From Opitutales bacterium (GTDB lineage: Bacteria > Verrucomicrobiota > Verrucomicrobiia > Opitutales > UBA953): 64,000 bases of DNA. Of the stretch, positions 11,337-64,000 are shown one piece after another (position 1 is the first letter of the stretch; every line of letters starts with the position of its first letter). Location: assembly GCA_017440935.1 (NCBI GenBank), contig JAFSAO010000022.1, positions 186,001 through 250,000 of the forward strand, read 5' to 3'. The notes below the pieces were generated by a model. The model had not been told where the DNA came from. It saw nothing but the letters and a program-made list of their open reading frames with translations, and made no database searches. The position numbers and the translations under genes are program-made.

Positions 11337-11783
11337 CTATGAAATGAGGCTTTTCAGCTCGGCAAGAAGCGCGGCGGGATCCGGGACGCGCCCGTCGGGA
11401 GTGACGGTTTTCGTGTCTTTGTGCCAACGCAAAATTTTCTGCATGAGCAAAAGGTAATCGCGGATCATTGCTGCGGGAACGCCGAGGAGGAGGACGAGGT
11501 GGGCGCGGTTGTCCGCATCGTCCCACGGGATTCCGGCTTCGGAAACGCCGACGGCAATGCGGATTTCGTCGAGCGCGTCCGTGCGTCCGTGCGGGAGCGC
11601 GAGTCCGCGTCCGAGAAACGTGGACGAAGTGTGTTCGCGTTCGATTGCCGCCGCTTTCATGGCTTCAATGGCTTCGGGGCTTGCGGCTTGCTCTTTTTCA
11701 AAGGCGGAAAAAAGGGATTGGAGCGCATCGTCGCGGGACGCGTTCCCGCAGAGGAGGACAGGTTGTTCGAGGACGTTCGGCAT
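11337..11783 (-). CDS. PTS IIA-type phosphotransfer protein (PtsN/fructose-like)
   Basis: A 148-residue cytosolic protein of the EIIA fructose/nitrogen family, which accepts phosphate on a histidine from HPr or NPr. The active-site stretch GRGLALPHGRTD places the phosphorylated His at 65. The downstream VLLLGVPA and the ending LLAELKSLIS fit the fold. No sugar permease or HPr gene is nearby, so a regulatory PtsN-like role is as likely as sugar transport. It is transcribed away from prmB and lies on the same strand as the ClC gene. Confidence 0.85.
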   Translation of the reverse strand: MPNVLEQPVLLCGNASRDDALQSLFSAFEKEQAASPEAIEAMKAAAIEREHTSSTFLGRGLALPHGRTDALDEIRIAVGVSEAGIPWDDADNRAHLVLLLGVPAAMIRDYLLLMQKILRWHKDTKTVTPDGRVPDPAALLAELKSLIS

Positions 11784-11837
11784 AGTCTGGGAAAACGCCC
11801 GAAAAACTAACAGAAATTTGCCTCAGGCAAAAGAGAG

Positions 11838-20725: not shown

Positions 20726-23452
20726 ATGTCCACTTTTTCCCGTTTTGCAGGTATTGTTTTTGCGGCGTTGGCGCTGATTCCCTTTTCCCTGTCCGGAGAG
20801 GAGCCGCGTCTTGCTCCGGCGGAAGGTTCGTTGGCGAACTTTACGCCGTTGGGATTTTTGGCGGAAAAATCGCGTGAAAAAGCGGATGCGCGCGTGCGCG
20901 GTTTGGAAGCGGAGTTGGCGTTGCTTTCCGGTTTGCCGTCGCTTGCCGAGGAGCTTTCCCGCAAGGAATTGGAGGAAAAAAGTTTGTCCAACGCAGAACG
21001 GGACCGCCTTTTGCTGACGCTTTCCGGCGCTCAGATTGCGCGCGGCGAATACGCGTTGGCGTCGGCGTCCGTCGGCGATATTTCCGGAAATTCTGCGCAA
21101 AAACATTTGCGCACGGCCTTTCTTGCCGTAACGCGCGGGGAATTTGCCGAAGCGGAAAAGCAACTTTCCGGTTTGTTCGTCGAATCGTTCCCGCGGCAGG
21201 AGCAATCGTGGTTTTTCTTTGTGCGCGCGCTGTCGGAATTTTTCCTCGGAAAAAAAGATGCGGCGAACGTGGATTTTGAAGCGGCGGAAGAAAATGCGTT
21301 GAGCGCGTCGGAGCGTGAACATATTGCGTTTGTCCGCCAATGGGCGAATGTCGTCGGCGGGGAAAGTGTTTCCGCCGAAGAGCTCGATGCGATGAGAACG
21401 GCGCGCGAAGCGGCGCGTTTTACCCCGGCGTTTGCCGAAGCGGGAAAACTTTACGCGGTGGCGCTTGCCAAGAGCGGAAATCTCGCGGGAGCGCGGGAAG
21501 CGCTGAACGAGGTTTCGCCCGTTCCCGCGAAAGAGACGGCGGATTTTGCTTTGCTCGAAGGGCTTTGGGCGGAAAATCCCGGAAGCGATGTTGCGCGGAC
21601 GGCGTTTTTGCGCGTTATCGGCGAGCGCCCGCCGCGCGCGCGCCAATCGGCGGCGCTTTCCGGGCTTTTGCGCAACGTAATCGCTTTAAACGGCGCAGGG
21701 AAAAAAGAGGAAGCGATTCTCGCCGCCAACGGAATCGAAGATTTTTTGGGCGCATTGACGCCGGACGAAAGCGTGCGCGACCTTGAGCTTTTCACGCGAG
21801 CGCGCATCGCGAGCGAGGTGGGAAATTTCCGTCGCGCGGAATCGCTGACGGAAGAGCTGATTTCGCGTTTCCCCGCGAGTCCGTTTGTTTCGGACGCTTT
21901 GCGCCTGCTCACGGGAATCGCCATTGAGGAAAAAGAATTTCGCCGCGCGGTATCATTGCTCGAACGCTTGCGCGTAACAACGCTTTCCCCGGAAGAAATT
22001 TTGCGCGCGGACATTTTGATTGCTGACTGCAACTTCCTTTCCGGGGACTACGCGCTCGCCGCCGACGCTTACGCACGCCTTTCCGAAGGGGAAACGAGCA
22101 CGATGGACAGCGAAAATCTCGGCGGAATTTTCTTCCAGCGTATTTACAGCGAAATCCGGAGCGGGAACGTTCTTGCCGCCGCCGAGCTTCTGGATTCCCC
22201 GATTGCCGCACGCGTTCCCGCAGGGTGGACGATGCGTGCGGAATGCGCCGTCATCGAAGGTTTACAACAGGCAGGTCGCTGGGAAGCCGCCGCCGCGCGC
22301 GCGAAAAAATTCTTGGCGCGAACGGATTTGCTGACGGATTTTCGCATTCGTATTCTTTGGACGCAGGCGCTTTTGGCTTTGGATTTGAATGATCCCGAAC
22401 TCGCTCTGCGCAATGCGGATTTGATTTCGGAACTCGCATCGGAACCGGATAAAATTATTTCCGAGGAGTTGCAGAGAACGGCGTCGGAACTCGTCAGTCG
22501 TTCGGTTTTGCTCAAAGCTCGCGCATTGTTTTTGCTGGGCGAGCAGGCGGAGGCGCTGAGCCTGCTTGCCGACTTGCGGGAACGCTATCCGGACAGCGCG
22601 TCCGCCGTCGTTTCATGGCTGGAGGAAGGGCGCCGTTTCCACGAATTGGGGAAGCCCGATCGCGCGCTTGTTTGCTATGAAACGCTGATCGACCGCTACG
22701 GCGCGCAGGAAAAGTTTGCGGAATATTTTTCTATTGCGGCGTTTGACGCGGCGCAGGCGGCAGCAACTATCGGGCGTCCGGAAGAAGCGGTGAAGCAAAT
22801 GCAGACGCTGATTTCGCGCTACCCGAAAAGCCCGCTCGCGTTTTATGCGCGTATGCGTCAGGCAGACTTTTTCCGCGTACTGAACGATTTCGACTCCGCA
22901 CTTGCCGTGTATGACAATTTGATTGCGGCGGAAGCGGATCGCCCCGAAATGCGTATTGTCGAAATGCGCCGTGCGGATACGCTACGCGCGCTTGCGGCGC
23001 GTGCCGAGGGCGACGCGAATTCCCGTAGCGCTTTTTTGGATGCGCTTTCCAAGGCGAAAGCCGCCTACGAGCGCCTGTTTAGCTTGCCGGATCAACCGCT
23101 TTCTCTGAAGGCGGAAGCCGGATTTAAGTGGGGCTATGCGGAGGAAGATTCCGTTCCCGAAACCGGCGATCCCGAAGAGCGGGAACGCGCGTGGGAACAG
23201 GCGCGGGCCATTTATTGGAAAACGGCATCCGAAATTATTGCCGCCGCGCAAAAGCAGGGAGAAATTACGCCGATCGAAGGCGGATATTGGGTTTCCCGCT
23301 GTCTTTTCGCGCTCGCGGGATTGTATGAAAAATCCGGAGATTACGAATCTGCCCGTAATACTTACGAAAAAGCGCGTGAGTGGGGCGAACTCGGGCTTAT
23401 CCCGGGGAAAAATTACGCCGAGCAACGCTGTCGCCGCATCTTTGAAAAGTAG
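20726..23452 (+). CDS. Secreted TPR-repeat protein
   Basis: A 908-residue protein starting at ATG 20726, which puts a clean signal peptide (RFAGIVFAALALIPFSLSG, cleavage near 24) at the N-terminus; an in-frame ATG at 20660 gives a poorer start. The rest is helical and made of many degenerate tetratricopeptide repeats, such as GKPDRALVCYETLIDRYG near 650 and GDYESARNTYEKAREWG near the end. It is likely a periplasmic scaffold. An ExbB/TolQ-like gene follows 104 bp later; in some bacteria such TPR proteins work with energised Tol/Exb complexes, but here this is inference from position. Confidence 0.8.
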   Translation: MSTFSRFAGIVFAALALIPFSLSGEEPRLAPAEGSLANFTPLGFLAEKSREKADARVRGLEAELALLSGLPSLAEELSRKELEEKSLSNAERDRLLLTLSGAQIARGEYALASASVGDISGNSAQKHLRTAFLAVTRGEFAEAEKQLSGLFVESFPRQEQSWFFFVRALSEFFLGKKDAANVDFEAAEENALSASEREHIAFVRQWANVVGGESVSAEELDAMRTAREAARFTPAFAEAGKLYAVALAKSGNLAGAREALNEVSPVPAKETADFALLEGLWAENPGSDVARTAFLRVIGERPPRARQSAALSGLLRNVIALNGAGKKEEAILAANGIEDFLGALTPDESVRDLELFTRARIASEVGNFRRAESLTEELISRFPASPFVSDALRLLTGIAIEEKEFRRAVSLLERLRVTTLSPEEILRADILIADCNFLSGDYALAADAYARLSEGETSTMDSENLGGIFFQRIYSEIRSGNVLAAAELLDSPIAARVPAGWTMRAECAVIEGLQQAGRWEAAAARAKKFLARTDLLTDFRIRILWTQALLALDLNDPELALRNADLISELASEPDKIISEELQRTASELVSRSVLLKARALFLLGEQAEALSLLADLRERYPDSASAVVSWLEEGRRFHELGKPDRALVCYETLIDRYGAQEKFAEYFSIAAFDAAQAAATIGRPEEAVKQMQTLISRYPKSPLAFYARMRQADFFRVLNDFDSALAVYDNLIAAEADRPEMRIVEMRRADTLRALAARAEGDANSRSAFLDALSKAKAAYERLFSLPDQPLSLKAEAGFKWGYAEEDSVPETGDPEERERAWEQARAIYWKTASEIIAAAQKQGEITPIEGGYWVSRCLFALAGLYEKSGDYESARNTYEKAREWGELGLIPGKNYAEQRCRRIFEK

Positions 23453-27426: not shown

Positions 27427-29061
27427 ATGGCAAAAAAACAGATTCTTTTTGATGAAGCCGGTCGCCGCAAAATCCTCGCCGGCGTTCAGACGCTCGCGAA
27501 AGCCGTTAAAATCACGCTCGGACCGAAAGGTCGCAACGTGATGATCGACAAAAAATACGGCGCACCGAAAGTGACCAAGGACGGCGTTTCCGTCGCCAAG
27601 GAAATCGAATTGGCGGACGCGTTTGAAAACATGGGCGCGCAAATGGTGCGCGAAGTCGCCTCCAAAACCGCCGACAAAGCGGGCGACGGCACGACGACCG
27701 CCACCGTTCTCGCCGAAGCCATTTACAAAGAAGGCTTGAAGAGCGTTTCCGCGGGAGCGAACCCGATTTTCGTCAAGCGCGGGATCGATGCCGCTTGCGA
27801 AACCATCACGAAGGAACTCGCTTCCTCCGCGAAGAAAATTAAAAACAGCGACGAAATCAAGCAGGTCGCAACCGTTTCCGCCAATTGGGACGATTCCATC
27901 GGCTCCATCATTGCCGACGCGATGAGCAAGGTCGGAAAAGACGGCACGATCACGGTTGAAGAAGCCAAAACCATCGAAACGACGCTCGATGTCGTCGAAG
28001 GTATGCAGTTCGACAAAGGCTACCTTTCCCCGTATTTCTGCACGAATGCGGAATCCCTCGAATGTGTGCTCGACGACCCGTATTTGCTACTCTTTGAAAA
28101 GAAGATTTCCTCGATGAAGGACTTGCTCCCGATTCTGCAGGAAGTTGCCAAGGCAGGAAAACCGCTCGTCATCGTCGCGGAAGACGTGGACGGCGAAGCT
28201 CTCGCGACCCTCGTCGTGAACAAGATTCGCGGCACGATCAACGTTTGCGCGGTCAAGGCTCCGGGCTTTGGCGATCGCCGTAAAGCCATGATGGAAGACA
28301 TCGCCATTCTCACCGGCGGAAAATTCATTACCGAAGATCTCGGCATCAAGCTCGAAAGCATCACTATCGCCGATCTCGGCAAAGCAAAACGCGTTGTCGT
28401 CGATAAGGAAAATACAACGATTATCGAAGGCGCCGGAAAATCTTCCGATATCCAAGGTCGCGTGAAACTTATTCGCCGCCAAATCGAAGAAACGTCCTCC
28501 GATTACGATCGCGAAAAACTTCAGGAACGCCTTGCGAAGCTCGCCGGCGGTGTCGCCGTCATCAAAGTCGGTGCCGCTTCCGAAGCCGAACTCAAAGAAA
28601 AGAAAGACCGTGTTGACGACGCGCTCCACGCTACTCGCGCGGCAGTTGAAGAAGGTATCGTTCCCGGCGGCGGCGTTGCGCTCCTGCGCACGGCGAAGGC
28701 TGTGGATAAGCTCATCGAAACGCTTGACGGCGACGCGAAAACGGGCGCGAAAATCGTGCGCCGCGCGATTGAAGAACCGCTCCGCACGCTCTGCGAAAAC
28801 GCCGGCGTCGAAGGTTCGCTCATCGTGAAGGAAGTCCTCAAAGGCAAGGGCAACTTCGGCTACAACGTGGCAACGGATGTTTACGAAGATCTCGTCGCCG
28901 CCGGCGTCGTCGATCCCGCGAAGGTCACCCGCACCGCAATCGTTTCCGCTACGTCGGTCGCTTCGATGCTCCTCACCACGGAATGCCTCATCACGGACGT
29001 TCCCGAAGAGCCGAAAGCCGCGCCCGCAATGCCGGACGGCGGAATGGGCGGAATGTATTAA
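27427..29061 (+). CDS. groEL: Chaperonin GroEL
   Basis: The 60-kDa ATP-driven folding chamber, 544 residues. Diagnostic stretches are [15 protein letters not shown] near 50, [16 protein letters not shown] near 85, and [12 protein letters not shown] near 413. The C-terminal tail is GG-M repeats (DGGMGGMY), as usual. Codon use is GC-rich and like other highly expressed genes here. It is the second gene of the groES-groEL operon, which ends in a terminator built from two inverted copies of the CGGGAACG word. Confidence 0.98.
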
Positions 29062-29104
29062 TCGAAAAAAAAAGATTAGAGCTTAAAGCTTAATGCTTAA
29101 AGAT

Positions 29105-29143
29105 GCGTTCCCGTGGGGATTTTCCTCGCGGGAACGCTTTTTT
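29105..29143 (+). terminator. groEL terminator built from an inverted pair of the CGTTCCCG word
   Basis: GCGTTCCCG (29105-29113) pairs with CGGGAACGC (29129-29137), followed by six T. Both arms are copies of the iterated genome word. This is the arrangement used by DNA uptake sequences in Neisseria and Haemophilus. Confidence 0.88.
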
Positions 29144-29598: not shown

Positions 29599-30360
29599 AT
29601 GAAAAAATACATCACTATTGCGGCTCTCCTCGCCGCAGGAACCGCGTTCGCGAATGCAGAAGAATCGGTAGATAGTCTCTCCGATGCTAAATTTTCAATC
29701 AAAAATCCGACGACCGGAACGTATACGCTTGGTGATACGTTTAGCTCTACAAGCTTCAGTTTCACATTCACACTTGCACCTGACGTTGTCAATGTCATCG
29801 GAGAGTCGGTTGAAACGAGTGAGGCTATGGAGATCAAGCCGACGTTGCTTTCCGTAACAGCAGGTGCAAGCCACTACGTCGGTGCAGGGGTCGGCTATTC
29901 TTCCAATGGCGAGACTAAACTGATTACAGGTGCCGGTATTTGGGGGCAAGCAACGCAAGCTTCTTCTTCGACCTCTTGCGGGACATATTTCGGAGGATCA
30001 AATATTGACAACCTCGATGATGTTAAGACCATTGCCGTTACGGTTACTCATGAGGTTAACTCCGGAACGACGTTTTATATTTCCGCTCTTTCTAATGATG
30101 GAACTTGGGCGGAATATACTCCGGCAAAAAATACGAGCTTAAAATGGAGCAGTGGTAATGCGGCTCCATCGGCTTTAGATCTCAACACAAACGCAGGAAT
30201 TTCTTCCGTGTATATTTTTGATTCTACAATTCTTTCTGCGAGCGGTGCTCAAGCAATTAACCATGCCGCAGTCGCTGCCCTTCCCGAACCGTCGGCGTTC
30301 GGTATGTTGGCGGGGCTTGGCGCTCTTGCGCTCGTGGCTTCTCGCCGCCGCCGCAAATAA
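29599..30360 (+). CDS. PEP-CTERM surface protein
   Basis: A secreted protein of 253 residues. A signal peptide (residues 1-20, LLAAGTAFANA) precedes a beta-rich, Ser/Thr-rich domain without a recognised enzyme motif. The tail LPEPSAFGMLAG, a hydrophobic segment and RRRRK form the sorting signal for an exosortase. The upstream element is shared with the PEP-CTERM gene at 8313 although the mature domains are not obviously alike. No CGGGAACG word occurs inside the gene. An inverted pair of that word forms the terminator just downstream. Confidence 0.85.
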   Translation: MKKYITIAALLAAGTAFANAEESVDSLSDAKFSIKNPTTGTYTLGDTFSSTSFSFTFTLAPDVVNVIGESVETSEAMEIKPTLLSVTAGASHYVGAGVGYSSNGETKLITGAGIWGQATQASSSTSCGTYFGGSNIDNLDDVKTIAVTVTHEVNSGTTFYISALSNDGTWAEYTPAKNTSLKWSSGNAAPSALDLNTNAGISSVYIFDSTILSASGAQAINHAAVAALPEPSAFGMLAGLGALALVASRRRRK

Positions 30361-30389: not shown

Positions 30390-30426
30390 GCGTTCCCGTG
30401 GCTTCGGTTACGGGAACGTTCTTTTA
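30390..30426 (+). terminator. Terminator of the second PEP-CTERM gene, from an inverted word pair
   Basis: CGTTCCCGT (30391-30399) pairs with ACGGGAACG (30410-30418), loop of ten bases, then TTCTTTT. Same construction as at 29105. Confidence 0.8.
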
Positions 30427-40190: not shown

Positions 40191-40968
40191 TAAAGTCGCA
40201 CTGCGCCTGCTCGTATTCGGCGAGAGTCCCGAGGTCGCGCCACGTTCCCGCGTCGTCGATGACACCGCGAATTTCGCCGTTCCCGCGCGCGATAACGCGC
40301 AAAAACGCTTCGACGACGCTTTCGATTTTTCCTGCGGGAATTTCGTCAAAAAACTTTCGCGAAACGCAATAAATTCCCGTGAATCCGCAGCGCCGCGTTC
40401 CCGCGTTGCCGAGACGGTCGCGCAAATCGACGATGGTTCCGGGCGGGTTTTCGGAGTCCGAAAAATTTACGTTCCCGCGTTCGTTCGTGCGCAAAAGTAA
40501 GGTCGCGAGCGCGCGGGAACGCAGATGCGCCGCAACGAGTTTTTCCAAATCCAAATCCGCGAGAATGTCGCCGTTGTAAACGAGCAGATTTTCGTCGGAG
40601 CTATCGAGAAATGTTTCGATATTTTTCAGTCCGCCGCCGGTGTCGAGTAAAACGGGTTCGTGGACGAGTTCGACGGGAACGCCGCGATAATTTCCTCCCG
40701 GAAATTTTTCCGCGTAAACCTGCGCTGCGTGGTGTGTGTTGACGATGAAGCGCTTTACACCGAGAGTGATCAGCGAGTCCATCGCACGGCAAATCATCGG
40801 CTTCCCGCCGAGCGGCAACAGCGGCTTCGGACAATTTTCCGTCAGCGGGCGTAACCGCGTCCCCAGTCCCGCGCCCAGCAAAAACGCGGTGCGAATCAAA
40901 GGAGAAGCGATTTTTTTGTCGTTTTCTAAAAACGCGGTTGAGGAAATTTTCGTTGTATCCGAAGCCAT
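40183..40968 (-). CDS. Sugar-phosphate nucleotidyltransferase (MurU/RfbA-like)
   Basis: The enzyme should couple a sugar 1-phosphate to a nucleoside triphosphate. From ATG 40968 the protein has 261 residues; an ATG at 41016 is the alternative start. The signature LGAGLGTRLRPLTENCPKPL is at about 31-50, and YNGDILADLDLE near 148 carries the metal-binding Asp. The compact size with little C-terminal domain resembles MurNAc-1-phosphate uridylyltransferase (MurU) and related short enzymes, which would fit wall recycling, but the substrate cannot be fixed. The region upstream turns AT-rich abruptly. Confidence 0.85.
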   Translation of the reverse strand: MASDTTKISSTAFLENDKKIASPLIRTAFLLGAGLGTRLRPLTENCPKPLLPLGGKPMICRAMDSLITLGVKRFIVNTHHAAQVYAEKFPGGNYRGVPVELVHEPVLLDTGGGLKNIETFLDSSDENLLVYNGDILADLDLEKLVAAHLRSRALATLLLRTNERGNVNFSDSENPPGTIVDLRDRLGNAGTRRCGFTGIYCVSRKFFDEIPAGKIESVVEAFLRVIARGNGEIRGVIDDAGTWRDLGTLAEYEQAQCDFKQ

Positions 40969-41178
40969 ATTTCCAATTATCTCCGCAAACGTTTCTTTAT
41001 CCACAAATTTCCGCAACCTCCCGCAATTTTTTTCGGAAACGCAGTTTTGTTAGACGAAGCGGAGAAAACCCACGAAAAATTCGTGTGCAGTATATTGATT
41101 TTACACTAATAAGAAGGCATACTAGCACCCAGAAGAGGCTTGACCCATTTAGCAACTAACACAAACGAAGAAGTTTTG

Positions 41179-41289
41179 ATGGCTAATTCGTATCGGCATA
41201 TTGCCAATCAGTATCAACGGAATATCGAAAGCGCTGGTATACTAATTAGATGCCCAGAAAGTGTCGTTCAAAATGATACAAATTGGTGA
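41179..41289 (+). CDS. Possible 36-residue ORF or gene remnant upstream of the giant helicase
   Basis: ATG at 41179 follows GAAGAAG by a normal distance and opens a 36-codon frame starting MANSYRHIANQYQRNIESAG and ending in TGA. A second short frame (41273-41332, starting MIQIGEKSQGAYLEEL) overlaps its end in another frame. Together they may be a frameshifted relic, a leader peptide, or chance in AT-rich DNA. The 396-bp gap 40969-41364 otherwise shows no recognisable element; a TTATCCACA DnaA-box-like nonamer is at about 40999. Confidence 0.25.
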   Translation: MANSYRHIANQYQRNIESAGILIRCPESVVQNDTNW

Positions 41290-41364
41290 AAAGTCCCAGG
41301 GTGCGTATTTGGAAGAATTAATAAAAAATTGAACCGGTAAGATATTAGGTTGAGGAGTCCGGAT

Positions 41365-44300
41365 ATGGCAAAAAGTATAGTGTTTTTTGATACCGAGATA
41401 GGTGTTGATGACCAAAAAATACATGACATAGGAGCAGTACGTAGCAACAAGGGAACCTTGCATACGGCATCCGTGTCAGATTTTTGTGCATTTGCGGCGG
41501 ATGCAGACTTTTTGTGCGGGCACAATGTGGTGCATCACGATATGAAATATCTCGCGCCCGTTGTGAGCGGTAGAGTTCCGAAGAGAATCATAGACACGTT
41601 GTATTTGTCCCCTCTTCTATTCCCGAGGAGACCGTATCACAAGCTGGTGAAAAATGATAAGCTTCAAGCGGAGGAATTGAACAATCCTGTAAATGACAGC
41701 TTGAAATCACAGGCGCTTTTCTTTGATGAAGTAAATGCTTTTCATCAACTCTCATTCGGAAAGAAAAAGATATTCTGCGGGCTTCTTTACAGCTTTGAAG
41801 AATTTCAAGGCTTCTTTGATTATGTAGGGTTTAAACCTTGTGCAAACGAAATGGCACAGATGATTCTTGCTGAATATAAAGGCAAACTTTGTGCCAATGC
41901 CGATATTGATATTCTTGTTAAGCATCATGCGAAGGAGGTTGCCTATGCGCTCGCTTTGATCGGATGTGAAGATTCCTACTCCGTTACGCCTCCGTGGTTG
42001 CTTTACAATTTCCCGAAGATTGAGAATGTAATCAAGCTTTTGTGCAATACCCCTTGCGCGGATGGATGCGATTATTGCAGGAACGCACTTGACGTACATA
42101 AAGGACTCAAAAAGATATTTGGGTTTGATAATTTTCGGACGTATAATGAAGAGCCGCTTCAGGAAATGGCGGCGAGGGCCGCAATGGAAGGAAAATCTTT
42201 GTTGGCTGTGTTCCCGACCGGAGGTGGTAAATCCATCACATTCCAATTGCCGGCGTTGATGGCAGGGAAGGCTACGCACGGGTTGACGGTTGTCATTTCT
42301 CCTTTACAGTCCTTGATGAAGGATCAGGTGGACAACTTGTCTGCAAAGGGAATAGCGGATGCCGTTACGGTAAACGGCATGCTTGATCCTATTGAACGAA
42401 GGGATGCTCTTATGCGAGTCTCAAGCGGACAGGCTTCGATTCTTTATATCTCGCCCGAGCAGTTGCGTTCTAAAACCATAGAGCATCTCTTGATGTCGCG
42501 TAATATAGTGAGATTCGTAATTGACGAGGCTCACTGTTTTTCGGCGTGGGGACAAGATTTTAGAGTGGATTATCTCTATATCGGAGATTTCATCCGCAAA
42601 CTCCAAGAGGAAAAGAAAGCTGACAAAAAATCGATACCTGTATCTTGCTTTACCGCAACGGCAAAGCAGAAGGTTGTTACGGACATTTGTGATTATTTCA
42701 AGAAAAAGCTAGACTTGGATCTTGAAATATTCGCGTCCTCCGCGACGAGAAAAAATCTTCACTACACGGTTTTATACAAAGAAACCGATGAGGAAAAATA
42801 TAATGAGCTACGTAGGTTGATTGTGCAGAAAAACTGTCCGACGATTGTCTATGTTTCGAGAACCAAGCGCACGTTTGATCTTGCAGGCAAATTGACAAGC
42901 GACGGACTTAGGGCTCTTCCGTACAACGGAAAGTTGGATCCCAACGAAAAAATTACCAATCAAAACGCCTTTATGAATAACGAGGTGTCAATTATTGTGG
43001 CGACCTCGGCTTTTGGAATGGGTGTTGATAAGAGTGATGTAGGGCTTGTCGTTCACTATGACATTTCTGATTCTCTCGAAAATTATGTTCAGGAAGCGGG
43101 TAGGGCGGGACGAAATCCTGCCTTACAGGCTGATTGTTACGTCCTTTTCAACGACAATGATTTGGATAAGCATTTCATCCTTCTCAATCAAACTAAGTTG
43201 AGTATCAGTGAAATACAACAGGTGTGGAAAGCGATCAAAGAGCTGACGAAGAACCGCCCCAATGTTTGTTGTTCCGCTCTTGAAATTGCGCGTCAGGCTG
43301 GTTGGGTTGATTCTGCCGGAGCTGAAATGGAGACGCGTGTCCGAACCGCTGTGTCTGCGCTTGAAACTGCAGGGTATATTGTGCGAGGACGAAACGTTCC
43401 GAAAGTATATGCAACAAGTATTCGTGCAAAGAATATGAAGGAGGCATCCGATTGTATTTGCGACTCTGACCTGTTTACGGATGAACAAAAAAATACGGCG
43501 TTGCGCATTGTGAAATCTTTGATTTCAAATCGTAGTGTCGCAACGGCAGGAAACACAGATGCCGAATCTCGTGTAGACTATCTCGCTGATATTCTTGGAA
43601 TAAAGAAAGCGGCTGTAATTGAGTCGATAAATCTTATGCGTCAGGTCGGATTGCTTGAGGATTATAGTGATATGTCCGCATATATTTATGATTCCGGCGG
43701 TCAGAATAAATCGGTTCGTATTCTTGAGAGCTTTTCAGAACTTGAAAGATTTCTTCTTTTAAAGATCACGGATGCAGGCATCACCTTTGGATTTAAAGAA
43801 CTTAATGAAGAAGCACAAAACAAAGGCATTACTACCTCTAATGTGAAGCATATCAGAACGCTTCTTCACTATCTGACAATCAAAAACTATATAACGAAAG
43901 AAGAAAATAGAGATAGCGTCTTGGTGAATCTTGTTCCGTCGTTTGATCTTAAACGACTTATGAGCAGATTTGAGCGAAGAGTGGAGATTTGTCGTTTCAT
44001 CCTTGACGAACTTTATTCAAAAGTGCTCCCGTATGGTGGATCTGATACCGAAAAGAAACCTGTTGAGTTTTCTCTTGTGGGCTTGTTTAAGGACTATCAG
44101 GCGGTCCCGAGAATGAATTTTGACGGAATTCCTGTTTCTCTTTCTGATGTGGAGGATGCTCTTTTATATCTTTCTAAAATCGGCGCACTAAAGATCGAAG
44201 GCGGTTTCCTTGTTCTTTACAATAGAATGGAAATTAAGCGGCTTGTTAAGGATAACCGTATTAAATATAAGGTAGACGATTACCGTTTGCTTGATGAGTT

Positions 44301-46194
44301 TTACAAGCAAAAGATAAGGCAAATTCACATTGTCGGCGAATATGCGAACCTTATGGTTCGTGACTATGATGCTGCATTAAAATTTGTTCAAGACTACTTC
44401 AATATGGACTTCAAGAAGTTCATTGCGACCTATTTCAAAGACGATAGAGCAAAAGAAATTGAGCGTAATATCACGCCTGAAAAATACAACCGGCTCTTTG
44501 GTGCACTTTCAGATAAGCAATCCGAGATTATAAACGATGCGGCTTCTAAATATATCGTAGTCGCGGCAGGTCCCGGAAGCGGCAAGACAAGGGTGCTTGT
44601 GCACAAGCTCGCGTCTTTGCTTCTTCTTGAAGATGTAAAACACGATCAACTGTTGATGGTGACTTTTTCTCGTGCGGCGGCTACCGAATTCAAAAAGCGG
44701 TTGATCGGTTTGATCGGTAATGCGGCAAATTTCGTGGAAATCAAAACTTTCCACTCGTATTGCTTTGATCTTCTCGGAAGGCTCGGGACTTTGGACGCAT
44801 CAAAAAATGTCGTCAAGGATGCGGTCGAAAGGATTCGAAATGGCGAAGTTGAGCAAGGAAAGATTTCAAAAAGCGTTTTGGTTATCGATGAAGCTCAGGA
44901 CATGGATGAGCACGAATTTGAGCTCGTGAAGGCTCTTATGACAATCAATGATGAGATGCGAGTTGTTGCCGTTGGTGATGATGATCAGAACATTTATGAA
45001 TTTCGGGGAGCTAATTCCAAGCATCTCGGAGCTTTGATTAAAGATTACGGTGCTCGCAAGTATGAGATGACAACGAATTACAGAAGCAATGCAACCGTTG
45101 TTGATCTAGCAAATGCTTTTGTAAAATCAATTACAAATAGAATGAAATCTGCTCCGATTGAGGCTGGGACGGATAAATCCGGAGATGTGAAAATCACTCA
45201 TCACGCCTGCGCCAATATGGAAGAAGCTGTGGTTAATGACCTGATCGCAACATACAAAGCAGGCAAGGCGTGTGTGCTTACTAATACGAACGATGAAGCA
45301 CTTTGTATACTCGGGCTTTTGTTGAAGCACGGAAAGCGAGCAAGGCTCATTCAGTCTCTTGACGGATTTAGCCTTTACAACCTTCTTGAAATCCGCGTGT
45401 TCCTCAAATCCATAGATCGAAATCTTCATTCACCTGTTATATCGGACGAAATATGGAGGAATGCGAAGGAGAAGCTGTTCTCGAGTCGTTATCGAGACAG
45501 TGCCTGCATCGATAATGTAAGGCGGTTGATATCGGATTTCGAAGCAACCCATTCGGTGAAGTATCGTTCTGATTTTGAGGAATTTTTAAATGAATCGAAA
45601 TTCGAGGACTTTTACGACGCGCACGAGCAGGGAGTCATCTGTGTTTCGACCATTCATAAAGCGAAAGGCAGAGAGTTCGATAACGTGTATATGATGCTGA
45701 AAAACTCTGCAGGCAAGACCGATGCAGAGCGCAGGGCATTGTATGTTGGTATGACGAGGGCTAAGAGCAATCTTTACATCCATACAAATACAACATTGTT
45801 CGAGCGATACCGGATTAACGGAGTTCAGCACGTGAAAGATTGCGCGAAATACGGAGAACCGACAGGAATCATGCTTCAAATGACCCACAAGGATGTAGTC
45901 CTTAGTTTCTTTAAAGATAAGAGGGAGATCATATTCAACCTTAGAAGCGGCACAAAACTGAAGCTTGACGATGTATTTCTTATCTCCGAATTGGGCGGAC
46001 AAAATATTCGCGTTGCGAAATTCTCCAAAGCTTTCATAGCAGTTCTTAGAAACCTAAAGAGTAAAGGATATTCTCCTAAATCTGCCGAGGTGCGTTTTAT
46101 CGTCGCGTGGAAAGGCAAAGAGGATACGGAAGAAACACCGGTTGTTCTTGCGGATATTTATTTTGAAAAGGAACCGGTCAAATTAATCTTCTAA
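41365..46194 (+). CDS. Giant fusion: DEDD exonuclease-like, RecQ helicase and UvrD/Rep helicase domains
   Basis: A 1609-residue protein from ATG 41365 (GAGGAG ribosome site at about 41352; a TTG at 41350 is an alternative). Residues 5-170 resemble a DEDD 3'-5' exonuclease, with FFDTE and GHNVVHHD. A Cys-rich link (CNTPCADGCDYC) near 230 leads to a RecQ-type SF2 helicase: FPTGGGKS near 283, DEAHCFSAWG near 387 and QEAGRAGR near 575. Residues 600-1050 are unrecognised, perhaps winged-helix. A UvrD-type SF1 helicase follows: GPGSGKT near 1068, DEAQD near 1173, DDDQNIYEFRGA near 1205, THKAKG-like TIHKAKG near 1428 and VGMTRAKS near 1461. All key motifs are intact. The gene is AT-rich and lacks the CGGGAACG word, so it was probably acquired. 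A role in DNA repair or defence is inference. Confidence 0.88.
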   Translation: MAKSIVFFDTEIGVDDQKIHDIGAVRSNKGTLHTASVSDFCAFAADADFLCGHNVVHHDMKYLAPVVSGRVPKRIIDTLYLSPLLFPRRPYHKLVKNDKLQAEELNNPVNDSLKSQALFFDEVNAFHQLSFGKKKIFCGLLYSFEEFQGFFDYVGFKPCANEMAQMILAEYKGKLCANADIDILVKHHAKEVAYALALIGCEDSYSVTPPWLLYNFPKIENVIKLLCNTPCADGCDYCRNALDVHKGLKKIFGFDNFRTYNEEPLQEMAARAAMEGKSLLAVFPTGGGKSITFQLPALMAGKATHGLTVVISPLQSLMKDQVDNLSAKGIADAVTVNGMLDPIERRDALMRVSSGQASILYISPEQLRSKTIEHLLMSRNIVRFVIDEAHCFSAWGQDFRVDYLYIGDFIRKLQEEKKADKKSIPVSCFTATAKQKVVTDICDYFKKKLDLDLEIFASSATRKNLHYTVLYKETDEEKYNELRRLIVQKNCPTIVYVSRTKRTFDLAGKLTSDGLRALPYNGKLDPNEKITNQNAFMNNEVSIIVATSAFGMGVDKSDVGLVVHYDISDSLENYVQEAGRAGRNPALQADCYVLFNDNDLDKHFILLNQTKLSISEIQQVWKAIKELTKNRPNVCCSALEIARQAGWVDSAGAEMETRVRTAVSALETAGYIVRGRNVPKVYATSIRAKNMKEASDCICDSDLFTDEQKNTALRIVKSLISNRSVATAGNTDAESRVDYLADILGIKKAAVIESINLMRQVGLLEDYSDMSAYIYDSGGQNKSVRILESFSELERFLLLKITDAGITFGFKELNEEAQNKGITTSNVKHIRTLLHYLTIKNYITKEENRDSVLVNLVPSFDLKRLMSRFERRVEICRFILDELYSKVLPYGGSDTEKKPVEFSLVGLFKDYQAVPRMNFDGIPVSLSDVEDALLYLSKIGALKIEGGFLVLYNRMEIKRLVKDNRIKYKVDDYRLLDEFYKQKIRQIHIVGEYANLMVRDYDAALKFVQDYFNMDFKKFIATYFKDDRAKEIERNITPEKYNRLFGALSDKQSEIINDAASKYIVVAAGPGSGKTRVLVHKLASLLLLEDVKHDQLLMVTFSRAAATEFKKRLIGLIGNAANFVEIKTFHSYCFDLLGRLGTLDASKNVVKDAVERIRNGEVEQGKISKSVLVIDEAQDMDEHEFELVKALMTINDEMRVVAVGDDDQNIYEFRGANSKHLGALIKDYGARKYEMTTNYRSNATVVDLANAFVKSITNRMKSAPIEAGTDKSGDVKITHHACANMEEAVVNDLIATYKAGKACVLTNTNDEALCILGLLLKHGKRARLIQSLDGFSLYNLLEIRVFLKSIDRNLHSPVISDEIWRNAKEKLFSSRYRDSACIDNVRRLISDFEATHSVKYRSDFEEFLNESKFEDFYDAHEQGVICVSTIHKAKGREFDNVYMMLKNSAGKTDAERRALYVGMTRAKSNLYIHTNTTLFERYRINGVQHVKDCAKYGEPTGIMLQMTHKDVVLSFFKDKREIIFNLRSGTKLKLDDVFLISELGGQNIRVAKFSKAFIAVLRNLKSKGYSPKSAEVRFIVAWKGKEDTEETPVVLADIYFEKEPVKLIF

Positions 46195-46231
46195 TGCTCG
46201 GAGATTTGAAAGGTAAAAAGGCGAAATCAGC

Positions 46232-46272
46232 ACGAAAAATTCGTGCTAATTGGTGTTTATTGGTGGTTCCGG
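46232..46272. repeat. ATTCGTG...TTGGTGTTTATTGG repeat arm
   Basis: AATTCGTGCTAATTGGTG and GTTTATTGGTGGTTC form a copy of the arm seen at 12030-12058 and 14207-14243. It marks the right edge of the helicase insertion. Confidence 0.6.
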
Positions 46273-46276
46273 GGTT

Positions 46277-47188
46277 TTAGGAAAGTTCGCGGAACATGAG
46301 CGGGAAGGTGTCGGCGGCGGGAATGCGGGTCCAGAGCTCGAAGGCGAGGGCGCCTTGCCACGCGAGCATGGAGCGACCGTCGGCGGCGGGAAGGTTGCGT
46401 TCCCGTGCGGCGGCGACGAGTGCGCTTGTGTGCGAGCCGTAAGTCGTGTCATAAACCGCCATGCCGGCGCGCAGAAGTTCCGGCGGGAACGGCGACGGAT
46501 CATCGGGTTTTAAGCCGAGCGAAGTCGCATTGACAATCAGGGCGGGCTCTTCCGTTGTTAAATTTTGAATGTCGCAACTCGAGAGAAAGGAAATTTTTTC
46601 TTTCGGAAAAAACGCGCACAAATCCGCGATGAGCGTTTCGGCGCGTTCGCGGGAACGGTTGACGATGGTCAGCGAAGCGCAATTTTGCGCGAGTGCTGTC
46701 GCCGCAATTGCGCGTGCCGCGCCGCCGGCTCCGAGCAAGACAATGTGCGTTCCCGCGAGCGTTGCGCCGAGCTGCATTTCTGCGGCGCGGGCAAAGCCGC
46801 GACCGTCGGTGTTTTCGCCGCGCCAGCCGCCGAGGGCGTCGTCGCGCACGAGCGTATTTGCCGCGCCGATGATTTCGGCTTCGGGCGAAAGTTTTTTCAA
46901 CGCCGGGAGCACGGCGACTTTGTGCGGGATCGTCAGATTGAGACCGTGAAAGTTTTTTTCAAAAAACAGCGGGAGTGTTTCGGAGAGTTCTTCCGGCGCA
47001 ATCTCAAAGCGGAAGTAGCGATATTCGGTAAGCTCCGGGCGGCGTTCCCGCGCGGCGGCGAAAGCGGCGTTGTGCATTTTCGGCGAGAGCGAATGCGCAA
47101 TCGGTTTGCCGAGGACGGCGAAACTCGGTTCGCGACGTGTCCACGTGCGCAAATCGTCCAACGAATAAACTTTCTCGAAGCAAGCCAT
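46277..47188 (-). CDS. aroE: Shikimate dehydrogenase
   Basis: An NADPH-dependent step of aromatic amino acid synthesis. The 303-residue protein is read from ATG 47188 (MACFEKVYSLDDL); an ATG at 47230 is also possible. The shikimate-binding GKPIAHSLSPKMHNAAF is near 30-46, the catalytic Lys is in LTIPHKVAVLP near 90, NTLVRDD follows, and the nucleotide loop is GAGGAARAIAATAL. An N-terminal extension of about 25 residues before the fold is unusual for E. coli-type AroE but known in other lineages. It converges on the giant helicase gene. Confidence 0.93.
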   Translation of the reverse strand: MACFEKVYSLDDLRTWTRREPSFAVLGKPIAHSLSPKMHNAAFAAARERRPELTEYRYFRFEIAPEELSETLPLFFEKNFHGLNLTIPHKVAVLPALKKLSPEAEIIGAANTLVRDDALGGWRGENTDGRGFARAAEMQLGATLAGTHIVLLGAGGAARAIAATALAQNCASLTIVNRSRERAETLIADLCAFFPKEKISFLSSCDIQNLTTEEPALIVNATSLGLKPDDPSPFPPELLRAGMAVYDTTYGSHTSALVAAARERNLPAADGRSMLAWQGALAFELWTRIPAADTFPLMFRELS

Positions 47189-50123: not shown

Positions 50124-50210
50124 TTTTTTGTTTATCCACAAATTTCACGAATTCCACGAATTTTATTTATAGGAGGACAGCCGTCTCGGCTGTCCCCTTT
50201 TTTATTTTTT
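50124..50210 (+). repeat. Repeat B, copy 3
   Basis: Full-length copy with perfect hairpin GGACAGCCG-TCT-CGGCTGTCC at 50175-50195 and a T run. Confidence 0.85.
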
Positions 50211-50361: not shown

Positions 50362-50610
50362 AGACAGCTCGCTTTGCTCGCTAATCTCAAATTCCGAATT
50401 AAAATTCCGTGTCTTTCCGTGCGTTCCGTGGCTCAAAAAAACACCGCATTTTTGTGTTCCCGCGCAAAAATTTCCGTAAAAAAAATAAAATATTTTTTCG
50501 CGTTCCCGCGCCAAAAACACCCCGGAATCGCCCTCGTTCCCGCATAAACACTACGTGAGATAAAACCCCATAAAAATAGTAGTCAATGGAAAATTCTTGT
50601 CTCATTTCCT

Positions 50611-50642
50611 CTTGCAAAGACGACAAAAAAAAAAACTAAGAT
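50611..50642 (+). promoter_or_regulatory. CTTGCA-A11 module upstream of the large PEP-CTERM gene
   Basis: TTGCAA at 50612-50617 is followed after 19 bp by TAAGAT at 50637-50642, with eleven A in the spacer. Box, spacing and homopolymer length match the modules at 8199 and 29484, although the run is A instead of T and no hairpin forms. Confidence 0.5.
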
Positions 50643-50680
50643 GTGAACAACTTCATTAAACACTCATCTAATTTACATCC

Positions 50681-53377
50681 ATGAAAACAACCAAATTCCT
50701 TCTTCCTACCCTCATTGCCGCCGCCGCAATGACCGCTACTGCGTTCGCTACTGATTACACATGGGACAGTTCTCAAGACTACACGTTTACATGGGATTTT
50801 TCCCAGAGCAACACTCAAAATGGACAAACCGGGGTGCTCGGTGGAACTGTATCTAATACGTTTGTTACGGAAGTCGTTGATATTATTTCCTCGACCGCGA
50901 TTAAAAAAGGTGATTCCACCGGGCAATACTGGGAAACGGGGACAAATTCATTTTTCTACGATGCGCTTAATTTTGTGACAACGTCCGGGACAACTGCGTC
51001 GCTGACATTTACAGTCGATTATTACTACACAGGGGCGCAGTGGGGAGAAAACATCCTTCATATCGGAAAAGACGGGACGGGGATTGCACTTGGTCTCGCC
51101 AAGTCCGGCTATGTTTCCTTTGGGACAGGAACAGCTACGGATAATACGTTCGTGACGAGTGATATCCAACTAGAGGCAAATACTTGGACTACGATTTCTT
51201 GGACAATCTCGAACGGGGGGTGGAGTGCAACCGTCGGTGAATCGACAAGCGATACTACCTCTATCGGAAGTATCTCCTGGGATTCTTCCGCTGATGAGCG
51301 AAACAAGTATAGTATCGGTGTTAAGGCTCCTGGGTGGAACAGTGGGGCTACTGGTTTGAATGATTCAGGATGTAAAATCGCAAATCTTTCCGTTAGTTAT
51401 TCTGGGGTTACTGTAAGAGATTTGATTTGGGGAGGAGAAGATGTCGGGACCTGGACTGATGAGTCTTGGAATTCTGGGAGCGATACAGGAGTAGCTATCA
51501 GCGAAAATTCTAATGTAACATTTAGTAAAACTGTCGCAATGACCGCAGACACCGATGTCTCTCTGCCATCCGTGACGGTTGAGAAAGATGCAACGTTGAC
51601 TCTTGCCGGCGAGGGGATCGTCTCTGCATCCACGGTAACAGTAAACGGAAATCTTTCTGTTTCAACTGATTCGACACTGGTGTCAAACAACACTATTTCT
51701 CTTGCGGAAAGTTCGATTCTTTCAGGGGGCGGGAAGATTGACCTTGGGTCAGCAGGAGTGATAACCCTCAACGGAGCTGAATTAGATCTCTCTGACTCTG
51801 GCTTCTCGGATTGGTCTGGAACAATCGTCATCTCTGAGCGGGCATCGCTCACGGACTTTTCGTTCGATAAATATGTTACAAGTGGCTCCAAAGTTGAAGT
51901 GACGGGTCTCGCCGGATGGCTTAACTCATTCACTTCCACCCTTGGGGAGGTTGTTTTGACAGACTCCTCGTCAGATTCTGCGTTTAAAGTAACCAACGGG
52001 TCGTCTAAAGGAAAATATTCTTTTGCCGGAAAAATTTCAGGCGCTGGGACGTTTGAGCATGCGTGGACTGGTGGAACAGGAGGGTGCGAATACACTTTTT
52101 CTGGAGATATTTCCGAGTGGACAGGGGCGTTTAAGCACTCTGCTTCCGGAAAAACCAATAAGGTGATTTTTTCAGAAAATATTTTGTCGATTACTACCGG
52201 AATTTCTGTAGCGGCGGGGATTTTGGAGGTTGAATTTGGTAACGATGATGCCACATATTCAGGCGAGATTTCTGGAGAAACAGGCGCGAGTATGTCCCTT
52301 AGTACATCTGGTACGCTGACGATTGACGGCTCATTTGCCAATAAAGGGACGACGGTTTTGGCGTCTGGAACAATACTTTGGAAAGCCGAAAATACACTTG
52401 GAAATACGCACCATACAGTTTCTGTCGGTAGCGATGCGCTTCTCGACTTGACGCAAGGGAGTAGCCTCTTTTCCGGAGCTGAACACGTTTCCAATGGTCG
52501 CTTAACGGTTCAAGGGAAGGTGAAGGTCGCCAACACAAATTGGGAGACTGGGACTTCTTTTGGCAAGTTACAGCACAACTCCGACACAATTTCTGTTGAC
52601 GGCGGGGAAATTGTTTACACGTTGACTCACACAGCAAGTAGAGCTCTCAATTTCACGGCAAATGGAGGAAAGATTACGATTGAAGATGGACAGTCGGTTG
52701 TGTTTGAAGGAAACGAAAATGGAGACGCTTTTATCACGGATGCCTCTGGTGGAACGCTAGCGTTCAATACCGTTGGGGATGCCGAAGTTTCTGGCACAAG
52801 AGGGGTTATTCAAGGAGGCGCTGGTATCGAAAAGACTGGCGCGGGAATGCTTACTCTTTCCGGTAGCAACAGCTATTCCGGCGGAACGACGATTTCTGCG
52901 GGTAAGTTGGTCGCGGCGAATGCAAATGCGCTTGGTGATGCCGGCGGGGCGGTAACGATTTCCGGAGGTCAGTTGAGTGTTTCTCAAAATGTCACTCTTG
53001 CACAAACCGCGATTACGATTGTGCTCAATGATGCGTACAATACGGAGAATACGGAAAAGATAGCCGCGATTTCCGGTGCGGGAGCTTTTGCGGACGGAAC
53101 GACGATTACTCTTGATAAAGCAGCAGACGCTGTCGCTCTGTCGCTCGTGGCGGAGGCACCTCAAAAATATTCCTATCAGATTTTTGATCCTACGTCTTCC
53201 TTGGTCGGAACTGACTGGACATTTGAGCTCGGATCCGCGTGGGATGGTTGGGAGCAGTCGTATGATACGACCAGCGGGGTGCTCACACTTACGATTCCTG
53301 AGCCGTCGGCGTTCGGGTTGTTGGCGGGCGTGGGTGCGCTAGCGCTTGTTGTGGCGCGCCGCAAACGCCGCAAGTAA
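50681..53377 (+). CDS. Large PEP-CTERM surface protein with autotransporter-type beta-strand repeats
   Basis: A secreted protein of 898 residues. The signal peptide (1-23, LIAAAAMTATAFA) is followed by an N-terminal domain with lectin-like features (about 25-250), then a long Ser/Thr/Gly-rich beta-helical region. Near 712-745 the stretch GVIQGGAGIEKTGAGMLTLSGSNSYSGGTTI, which I split here as GIEKTGAGMLTLSG and NSYSGGTTISAG, is the classic autotransporter-associated repeat. The tail IPEPSAFGLLAGVGALALVV and RRKRRK is the sorting signal; there is no outer-membrane barrel. The gene is AT-richer than the chromosome, lacks the CGGGAACG word, and is flanked by repeat clusters. Likely an adhesin or coat protein. 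Confidence 0.85.
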   Translation: MKTTKFLLPTLIAAAAMTATAFATDYTWDSSQDYTFTWDFSQSNTQNGQTGVLGGTVSNTFVTEVVDIISSTAIKKGDSTGQYWETGTNSFFYDALNFVTTSGTTASLTFTVDYYYTGAQWGENILHIGKDGTGIALGLAKSGYVSFGTGTATDNTFVTSDIQLEANTWTTISWTISNGGWSATVGESTSDTTSIGSISWDSSADERNKYSIGVKAPGWNSGATGLNDSGCKIANLSVSYSGVTVRDLIWGGEDVGTWTDESWNSGSDTGVAISENSNVTFSKTVAMTADTDVSLPSVTVEKDATLTLAGEGIVSASTVTVNGNLSVSTDSTLVSNNTISLAESSILSGGGKIDLGSAGVITLNGAELDLSDSGFSDWSGTIVISERASLTDFSFDKYVTSGSKVEVTGLAGWLNSFTSTLGEVVLTDSSSDSAFKVTNGSSKGKYSFAGKISGAGTFEHAWTGGTGGCEYTFSGDISEWTGAFKHSASGKTNKVIFSENILSITTGISVAAGILEVEFGNDDATYSGEISGETGASMSLSTSGTLTIDGSFANKGTTVLASGTILWKAENTLGNTHHTVSVGSDALLDLTQGSSLFSGAEHVSNGRLTVQGKVKVANTNWETGTSFGKLQHNSDTISVDGGEIVYTLTHTASRALNFTANGGKITIEDGQSVVFEGNENGDAFITDASGGTLAFNTVGDAEVSGTRGVIQGGAGIEKTGAGMLTLSGSNSYSGGTTISAGKLVAANANALGDAGGAVTISGGQLSVSQNVTLAQTAITIVLNDAYNTENTEKIAAISGAGAFADGTTITLDKAADAVALSLVAEAPQKYSYQIFDPTSSLVGTDWTFELGSAWDGWEQSYDTTSGVLTLTIPEPSAFGLLAGVGALALVVARRKRRK

Positions 53378-53445
53378 GCCGAGGCGAGAAAAGAATTTCG
53401 GGGGAAGTTTATAGCTACTTCTTCCGGAAAACAGATGAAGTACAG

Positions 53446-53482
53446 GCGTTCCCGTGATGAGTCGCGGGAACGCTTTTTTTTT
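53446..53482 (+). terminator. Terminator of the large PEP-CTERM gene, from an inverted word pair
   Basis: GCGTTCCCG (53446-53454) pairs with CGGGAACGC (53465-53473), loop TGATGAGTCG, then nine T. Clearest example of the word-pair terminator. Confidence 0.92.
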
Positions 53483-53510: not shown

Positions 53511-53575
53511 ATTTTATTTATAGGAGGACAGCCGTCTCGGCTGTCCCTTTTTTTGTTTTTTACGGGAAATTCAAA
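53511..53575 (+). repeat. Repeat B, copy 4 (5' part missing)
   Basis: Starts at ATTTTATTTATAGGAGGACA and keeps the perfect GGACAGCCG hairpin with T run, followed by TTACGGGAAATTCAAAAATAG as in copy 1. Confidence 0.8.
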
Positions 53576-62663: not shown

Positions 62664-63047
62664 ATGGCTAAGAAAATTTCCACCGACGGAAAAACTTCCG
62701 GCGTCTCTTCCATCAACGACGCGTTCGGCTCACTTCACATCGAAAATCTTCCGCAGGCAGAGCCGCCGCAAAAACGCCGCTCCGCAAACTCCAAGCCGAG
62801 CGTTCCCGCAAAACTCGGAAAAGTCCATCTGCGTATCGAAAAATCCGGGCGTAGCGGAAAAACCGTAACGATCCTCGAAGGTCCGGGAATTGCGGCACTT
62901 CCCGCCGAGCAACGCTCGGACTTGCTCAAATCTCTCAAACAAAAATTCGCGTGCGGCGGATCCGAGGTTGACGGAAAGCTTGAATTGCAGGGCGATGACC
63001 GCGATCGCGTCCGTTTCTTTCTCCAACTCCTCGGCTACTCTGCGTAA
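62664..63047 (+). CDS. SUI1/YciH-family translation initiation factor-like protein
   Basis: A 127-residue protein from ATG 62664, preceded by a purine-rich stretch. Residues about 50-127 match the SUI1 fold found in eukaryotic eIF1 and bacterial YciH: KVHLRIEKSGRSGKTVTILEG is close to the family pattern, followed by LKSLKQKFACGGSE and GDDRDRVRFFLQLLGY. The N-terminal 45 residues are variable. In bacteria its role is linked to initiation fidelity but is poorly defined. Co-transcription with obgE supports a ribosome role. Confidence 0.88.
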   Translation: MAKKISTDGKTSGVSSINDAFGSLHIENLPQAEPPQKRRSANSKPSVPAKLGKVHLRIEKSGRSGKTVTILEGPGIAALPAEQRSDLLKSLKQKFACGGSEVDGKLELQGDDRDRVRFFLQLLGYSA

Positions 63048-63070: not shown

Positions 63071-63110
63071 AAAGCGTTCCCGTGAGATTTTCACGGGAAC
63101 ACTTTTTTTT
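63071..63110. terminator. Bidirectional terminator between SUI1-like gene and trpB, from a word pair
   Basis: AAAGCGTTCCCGTGA pairs with TCACGGGAACACTTT (one C-A mismatch) around a short loop, with T's on the right and A's on the left, so it works for both converging genes. One arm is a full CGTTCCCG word, the other CGGGAAC with the last base changed. Confidence 0.9.
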
Positions 63111-63136: not shown

Positions 63137-64000
63137 TTAGTATTCGCGGTCGGCGTATTCGCCGAATTTTTCCATGACGAAATCAAGGTCTTTGTCGCCG
63201 CGCCCGGAGAGATTGACGAGGATTGATTCCGTCGGGCGTTCCTTGGCGAGCTTCGTCGCAAACGCCACGGCGTGCGCGCTTTCGAGAGCGGGAATGATGC
63301 CTTCGAGTCGCGAAAGTTGGAAGAACGCCGTGACGGCTTCGTCATCGTTGATTTGAACGGCTTTTTCGCGCCCGATTTCGTGCCAGTAAGCGTGTTCCGG
63401 ACCGACGGAAGGGTAGTCCAAGCCGCTTGCCGCAGAATAAACCGGCGCGGGATTGCCGTCGGCATCTTTGAGCATGATGGAATTGAAGCCGTGCATGATA
63501 CCTTCGGTGCCGTAGGCGAGCGAGCAGGCGTGTTCGCCGAGCTTTGTGCCGCGACCGAGCGGTTCGACGCCGTAAATTTCGACGGGATCGTCAATAAACG
63601 CGTGGAAAAAGCCCGCCGCGTTGGATCCGCCGCCGACGCAGGCGCAAATATTATCCGGCATTTCGCCCGTCATTTCAAAAAACTGTTCCCGTGCTTCGAT
63701 GCCGATAACGCGTTGGAATTCGCGAACGAGAAGCGGGAACGGATGCGGACCGAGCACTGAGCCGATGCAGTAAATGGAATTGACCGGATCTTCGAGGTAG
63801 GATTCAAACGCGGAGTCGACGGCTTCTTTGAGCGTTTTATCGCCGCGCGTCACGGAAACGACCTTCGCGCCAAGCACTTTCATGCGCATGACGTTCGGAT
63901 ATTCTTTTTTGATATCGACTTCGCCCATGTGAATTTCCACGGGAATGCCGAAATACGCTCCCGCCGTTGCGAGTGCTACGCCGTGTTGTCCGGCGCCCGT
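63137..64000 (-). CDS. trpB: Tryptophan synthase beta chain, N-terminus beyond window
   Basis: The PLP enzyme that condenses indole with serine. The window holds about the last 288 residues; the frame runs off the right end, and the bases at 63941-64000 encode [18 protein letters not shown], the loop just after the PLP lysine. Further in are [14 protein letters not shown], which binds the PLP phosphate, and [16 protein letters not shown] near the end. The last residues ([15 protein letters not shown]) match the normal C-terminus. It converges on the SUI1-like gene. Confidence 0.96.

Follow-up and report, generated by a model that had tools for sequence, protein, structure and literature searches.

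The window analysed here is a stretch of 64,000 nucleotides from a member of an Opitutales genus (Verrucomicrobiota) whose nearest named relatives are metagenome-assembled genomes, several of them from the gut of sheep, deer and buffalo. It carries four putative terminators, each formed by two nearby, inverted copies of an iterated eight-letter word, CGTTCCCG. The first (29105-29143, forward strand) lies 44 nt past the stop of groEL (27427-29061, forward; Pfam Cpn60), which reads into it; its arms, GCGTTCCCG and CGGGAACGC, carry the word on the forward strand at 29106-29113 and on the reverse strand at 29129-29136, are followed by a T run and are kept in orthologues, and the hairpin folds at -31 kcal/mol (z -7.1). 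The second (30390-30426, forward; left arm CGTTCCCG at 30391-30398, right arm with the word on the reverse strand at 30411-30418; -24.1 kcal/mol, z -6.3) stands 30 nt past the gene of a PEP-CTERM-like exported protein of 253 aa (29599-30360, forward), for which no Pfam match was found and whose PEP-CTERM-like tail was read from the end of the translation, LPEPSAFGMLAGLGALALVASRRRRK. The third (53446-53482, forward; left arm CGTTCCCG at 53447-53454, right arm with the word on the reverse strand at 53465-53472; -23.9 kcal/mol, z -5.8) ends in a run of nine T and follows, at 69 nt from the stop, the gene of an 898-aa PEP-CTERM/PATR protein with a Pfam PEP-CTERM match (50681-53377, forward). That gene falls in a stretch without any copy of the word (50543-53446), yet its terminator has words. 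The fourth (63071-63110; -25.4 kcal/mol, z -7.6) consists of an A run, a hairpin and a T run and would work in both directions, since it lies in the gap between a SUI1-domain gene downstream of obgE (62664-63047, forward; Pfam), 24 nt past its stop, and a convergent trpB-like PALP gene (63137-64000, reverse; Pfam), 27 nt from its end, both of which read into it. Its left arm is an exact CGTTCCCG (63075-63082, forward), whereas the right arm is CGGGAACA, the changed base being a mismatch at the foot of the stem.

All four hairpins had been proposed as terminators in a preliminary description of this DNA, which also mentioned the one-base change; they are indeed present at these positions, 24 to 69 nt past the stops, and fold far better than shuffled sequences. 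The T run said to follow each stem is found in three of them, but at 30390-30426 it is interrupted (TTCTTTT). The only other exact pair of the same order within 20 nt in the window (23152-23187) is located inside a gene and was rejected as a terminator, as it folds no better than shuffles (z -0.5).

The word itself is extremely abundant: 177 copies in the window against 6.5 expected, and 5,274 copies in the genome (1.835 Mb) against 85 for the reversed word, which corresponds to a mean spacing of one per 348 bp. These thousands of copies of a short word are split evenly between the strands (2620 forward, 2654 reverse); CGTTCCCG differs from its own reverse complement and thus lacks the palindromic character of the cyanobacterial HIP words. 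It is preferentially preceded by G and followed by C or T, then G or A, and some one-letter deviations from it are enriched as well. Detailed counts refer to 464 kb, about a quarter of the genome, made up of the window and a further 400 kb of stretches, with gene calls and a simple terminator finder of our own, while the whole-genome figures are pattern counts on assemblies derived from metagenomes. In the 464-kb sample, 83% of the words lie inside genes, where they occur in all reading frames, the Gly-Thr and Val-Pro frames being the commonest. Six of the eight sampled members of the genus have a dense word, with weaker abundance in G001 (1362 copies) and G006 (546), and in the family's other genera its frequency is close to background. 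Conservation of word sites was 0.70-0.89, compared with 0.24-0.54 for composition-matched 8-mers, in six small pairwise alignments with codon positions pooled, which argues that the word is being maintained; genus-limited abundance and site conservation are the better hints of such active upkeep. Our search of the open-access literature found nothing relevant on this word, or on uptake words in Verrucomicrobia/Opitutae. A stretch of 5.7 kb in the window (40682-46397) has no copy of the word; it covers a 1609-aa double helicase protein (DEAD and UvrD/Schlafen-type domains) and is probably a recent arrival.

Could inverted pairs simply arise because the word is so dense? Some of the counts look compatible with chance: over the whole genome a simple product estimate predicts about 114 pairs of each order with gaps of 1-30 nt, against 173 observed for CGTTCCCG followed by CGGGAACG and 79 for the opposite order, and inside genes the order bias is slight (11 to 7 in the 464 kb). 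The picture is quite different outside genes. With gaps of up to 20 nt, the 464 kb contain 49 pairs in the order CGTTCCCG then CGGGAACG, 9 in the opposite order and 28 on the same strand; outside genes these numbers become 38 and 2 for the two inverted orders. When the non-coding words were placed at random, their number being kept, 500 trials gave a mean of 4.5 pairs and a maximum of 14, compared with the 38 seen. Inverted pairs are therefore far commoner than the frequency of the word predicts, and most of them (38 of 49) are outside genes although 83% of the words are inside. The genome scan suggested in the preliminary description, for the word pair followed by a T run, gave 90 matches against 3 in the opposite order; as forward-strand matches of a single pattern, such counts set a minimum for terminators in either orientation. 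Together with the T tails and the position at gene ends, these figures refute chance for the non-coding pairs, and as a general account of the pairs we give it practically no credence.

The anatomy of the pairs is that of intrinsic terminators. All 36 non-coding pairs with gaps of 2-20 nt have a gene reading in and ending 7-69 nt away; in 32 of the 36 the stem is directly followed by four or more consecutive T, and the 36 hairpins are stable and GC-rich, with a mean fold energy of -21.2 kcal/mol. Fourteen pairs were found in 40 gaps between convergent genes but only one in 43 gaps between divergent genes, as is expected of elements downstream of genes. The tails follow gene direction: T tails are richer than A tails in gaps between two forward genes, and the reverse holds between two backward genes. 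Since A/T tails flank the paired words and are absent around isolated words, they are a feature of the terminator rather than of the word. Our simple finder, which counts two-way hairpins on both strands, identified 129 intergenic terminator-like hairpins, of which 44 contain both arms of the word and a further 12 a single arm. The pairs are not all terminators, however, as 10 of the 46 pairs with gaps of 2-20 nt lie in genes and mostly lack terminator features. Based on these sequence statistics (location behind genes, agreement of the tails with gene direction, folding energy and the cross-species conservation of the arms described below), we conclude with high confidence that the inverted pairs function as intrinsic (Rho-independent) terminators, many of them two-way, recruited from two nearby copies of the word. 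The order CGTTCCCG then CGGGAACG would provide an 8-bp stem, usually extended to 10-14 bp by the preferred flanks of the word, and a T run, often with an A run on the other side, would complete a structure at which RNA polymerase is expected to stop. The high density of the word would have come earlier and for a different reason, DNA uptake being the most likely one, and pairs would then have been retained where they stop transcription.

The strong preference for this order is not accounted for by either of two candidate causes. An A/T-rich extension of the word was rejected, as none is seen around isolated words, and so was the general composition of terminator arms: left arms are pyrimidine-rich in 48 of 54 word pairs compared with 14 of 63 word-free terminators, in which the left arm tends instead to be rich in purines.

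Other repeated elements are also present near the pairs. Two terminators located far apart, at 29106-29136 of the window and at 11777-11807 of sequence L046, share an identical 31-base core, which suggests that whole terminators are occasionally copied. A second terminator-like hairpin, GGACAGCCGTCTCGGCTGTCC followed by T's, is found at 50175-50195 and 53526-53546 of the window, and a variant of it lies downstream of groEL in G005; the pattern GGACAGCCG..CGGCTGTCC has eight matches counting both strands (about four places) in the 464 kb, all outside genes. Sequences resembling AGCTTAAAG or GCTTAAAG recur beside word-pair terminators, for instance at 29062-29105 of the window; TTAAAG or CTTTAA occurs within 16 nt of 10 of the 46 pairs, and AGCTTAAAG occurs 15 times, always in non-coding DNA.

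The same organization extends across the genus. Pairs with a T run are biased alike in all members, the ratios of forward to opposite order being 61:3 in G002, 101:7 in G003, 91:7 in G004, 71:3 in G005, 69:4 in G007, 48:1 in G001 and 6:0 in G006. A hairpin built from the word follows groEL in seven of the eight species, its arms being kept while the loops differ; in G006 the 330 nt after groEL contain no word-built hairpin. Where an arm of the groEL terminator has changed (CGGGAGCG in G001 and G002, CGTTCCTG in G003), the changed base forms a G-U wobble with the intact arm, so that pairing is kept. Likewise, the SUI1/trpB gap of the relative L080 has its changed base, a wobble, in the left arm, and not in the right arm as in the window. 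The closest relatives by YidC (L078 and L079) could not be compared at this terminator, as their gene order differs past the SUI1-domain gene. In G001, words are four times rarer than in the host of the window, yet at least 48 T-tailed pairs are present compared with 90, about half the number; the terminators therefore persist independently of the cause that maintains a high word density. G001 groups with G006, and since the dense G004 adjoins this sparse pair in a rooted three-protein tree (support 80/78, modest), loss of the word in the two species is favoured over a late gain. The idea that these two low-word species use separate uptake dialects was rejected: G001 has the same word, diluted, and G006 combines a weak excess of the word with an unrelated, clustered C-rich element, with no clear dialect. 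In G006 (L022-L025, L068-L077), CCACCAACCC and CCACTAACCC are numerous and clustered, mostly outside called genes, at about one per kb in the sample. A search for viruses carrying the word returned four IMG/VR matches, which are word-poor and look like chance hairpins; they were not retained.

Why the word is so dense is a separate question, which the terminators leave undecided. It may be a DNA uptake sequence, with terminators co-opted from it as in Neisseria and the Pasteurellaceae, an account that is compatible with the terminator function and that we consider about evenly balanced between true and false. The pilus that takes up DNA would carry a receptor with a preference for word-bearing DNA, and copies would spread and persist by transformation. 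The spacing of one per 348 bp, equally on both strands, the non-palindromic form, the use of all reading frames, the conservation of sites above matched words and the confinement of the word to one genus among those sampled are all consistent with such a role, as are the resemblance of the paired-word terminators to those of known uptake-word genomes and the presence of ComEC, DprA and PilB/PilT-type ATPases. These type IV pilus ATPases, ComEC and DprA occur in eight of eight members of the genus, but ComEC and DprA are near-universal in the order, in genomes with and without a dense word alike, and hence do not discriminate, and the low-word species retain the whole set. Moreover, CGTTCCCG is packed about three times as densely as the N. 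meningitidis uptake word, and transformation is not known from any member of the genus. Nor do the paired terminators help to decide. The preliminary description had taken them to support uptake separately from the raw count, a claim that we reject: because any dense non-palindromic word supplies ready-made hairpins, they are not separate evidence, as is apparent both from the account of Kingsford et al., in which such pairs are a by-product of a word and its complement being abundant (PMC1852404), and from the pairs of G001, which persist although words there are four times fewer. An uptake role is thus plausible, and the paired terminators fit it without proving it.

Some of the evidence compatible with uptake fits as well a process of internal upkeep, such as the methyltransferase and mismatch-repair bias proposed for cyanobacterial HIP1, or a site for a recombination or nucleoid protein, the terminators being again a by-product. 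The word exceeds the 1000-2000 per Mb of HIP words but its density is of the same order (PMC4390886), lineages likewise differ in HIP1, and some one-letter deviations from the word are enriched here; against this, HIP words are palindromic and CGTTCCCG is not, and overall strand imbalance is absent (2620 to 2654). We regard this alternative as possible, though less likely than not. Much less probable is the reverse order of events, in which the word spread with a terminator hairpin that was favoured or copied. Such a scenario could explain why G001 has sparse words and common T-tailed pairs, with about half of its non-coding words in the sample being members of pairs, and why two distant terminators share a 31-base core; yet pairs hold only about 7% of the words of the host genome (173 pairs with gaps of 1-30 nt for 5,274 words), 83% of the words are inside genes, the loops mostly differ, and loss is the simpler reading of the tree in which dense G004 adjoins the sparse pair. 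Returning to uptake, a fuller proposition would be that CGTTCCCG is a true uptake word in Verrucomicrobiota, representing an independent origin of self-DNA recognition outside the Pasteurellaceae and Neisseriaceae, at very high density, which took hold in a single Opitutales genus and later decayed in one of its sub-clades, leaving paired terminators where the word thinned; we hold this to be possible, with chances slightly short of even. The pairs and the word at least provide targets for work at the bench, and G001 separates two things that are usually confounded, as the word has thinned out and the terminators remain.

Terminators co-opted from an iterated word were previously known from two proteobacterial families and now extend to the Verrucomicrobiota. 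With cyanobacterial HIP1 (GCGATCGC), the word shares a copy density of the same order, a limitation to certain lineages and an unsettled function, but HIP1 is its own complement and is tied to methyltransferases (PMC4390886). The closer parallel, already drawn in the preliminary description, is with the uptake-word terminators of Neisseria and Haemophilus/Pasteurellaceae, and it is real (PMC1852404). Paired uptake signal sequences of the Pasteurellaceae (AAGTGCGGT) have the same arrangement, the word being found in 16-29% of terminators there; the order bias in H. influenzae is weaker (50 to 25) and has been explained by the AAAA with which the extended motif ends (PMC1852404). In Neisseria, paired DNA uptake sequences (GCCGTCTGAA) act as terminators (Kingsford et al. 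2007, PMC1852404), and as in our genome the inverted pairs lie just past genes, have T tails and show a strong preference for one order. Within 10 nt, the ratio is 226 to 5 in N. meningitidis Z2491 (PMC1852404) and 22 to 2 here in 464 kb. Our gene-direction test of the tails is of the same kind as that applied to Neisseria by Kingsford et al. (PMC1852404). Terminators built on the word make up 54-57% in Neisseria (PMC1852404) and 43% here (56 of 129, counting either arm and with a different finder). In contrast to Neisseria, the word and the phylum are different, single words have about three times the density, genes hold most of the words, and uptake is only a candidate role for CGTTCCCG. The order preference of Neisseria has been attributed to A/T-rich motif ends (PMC1852404), whereas no A/T-rich extension exists here to explain it; a strong order bias without such an end would make this genus an independent replicate of the process by which an iterated word is drawn into terminators.
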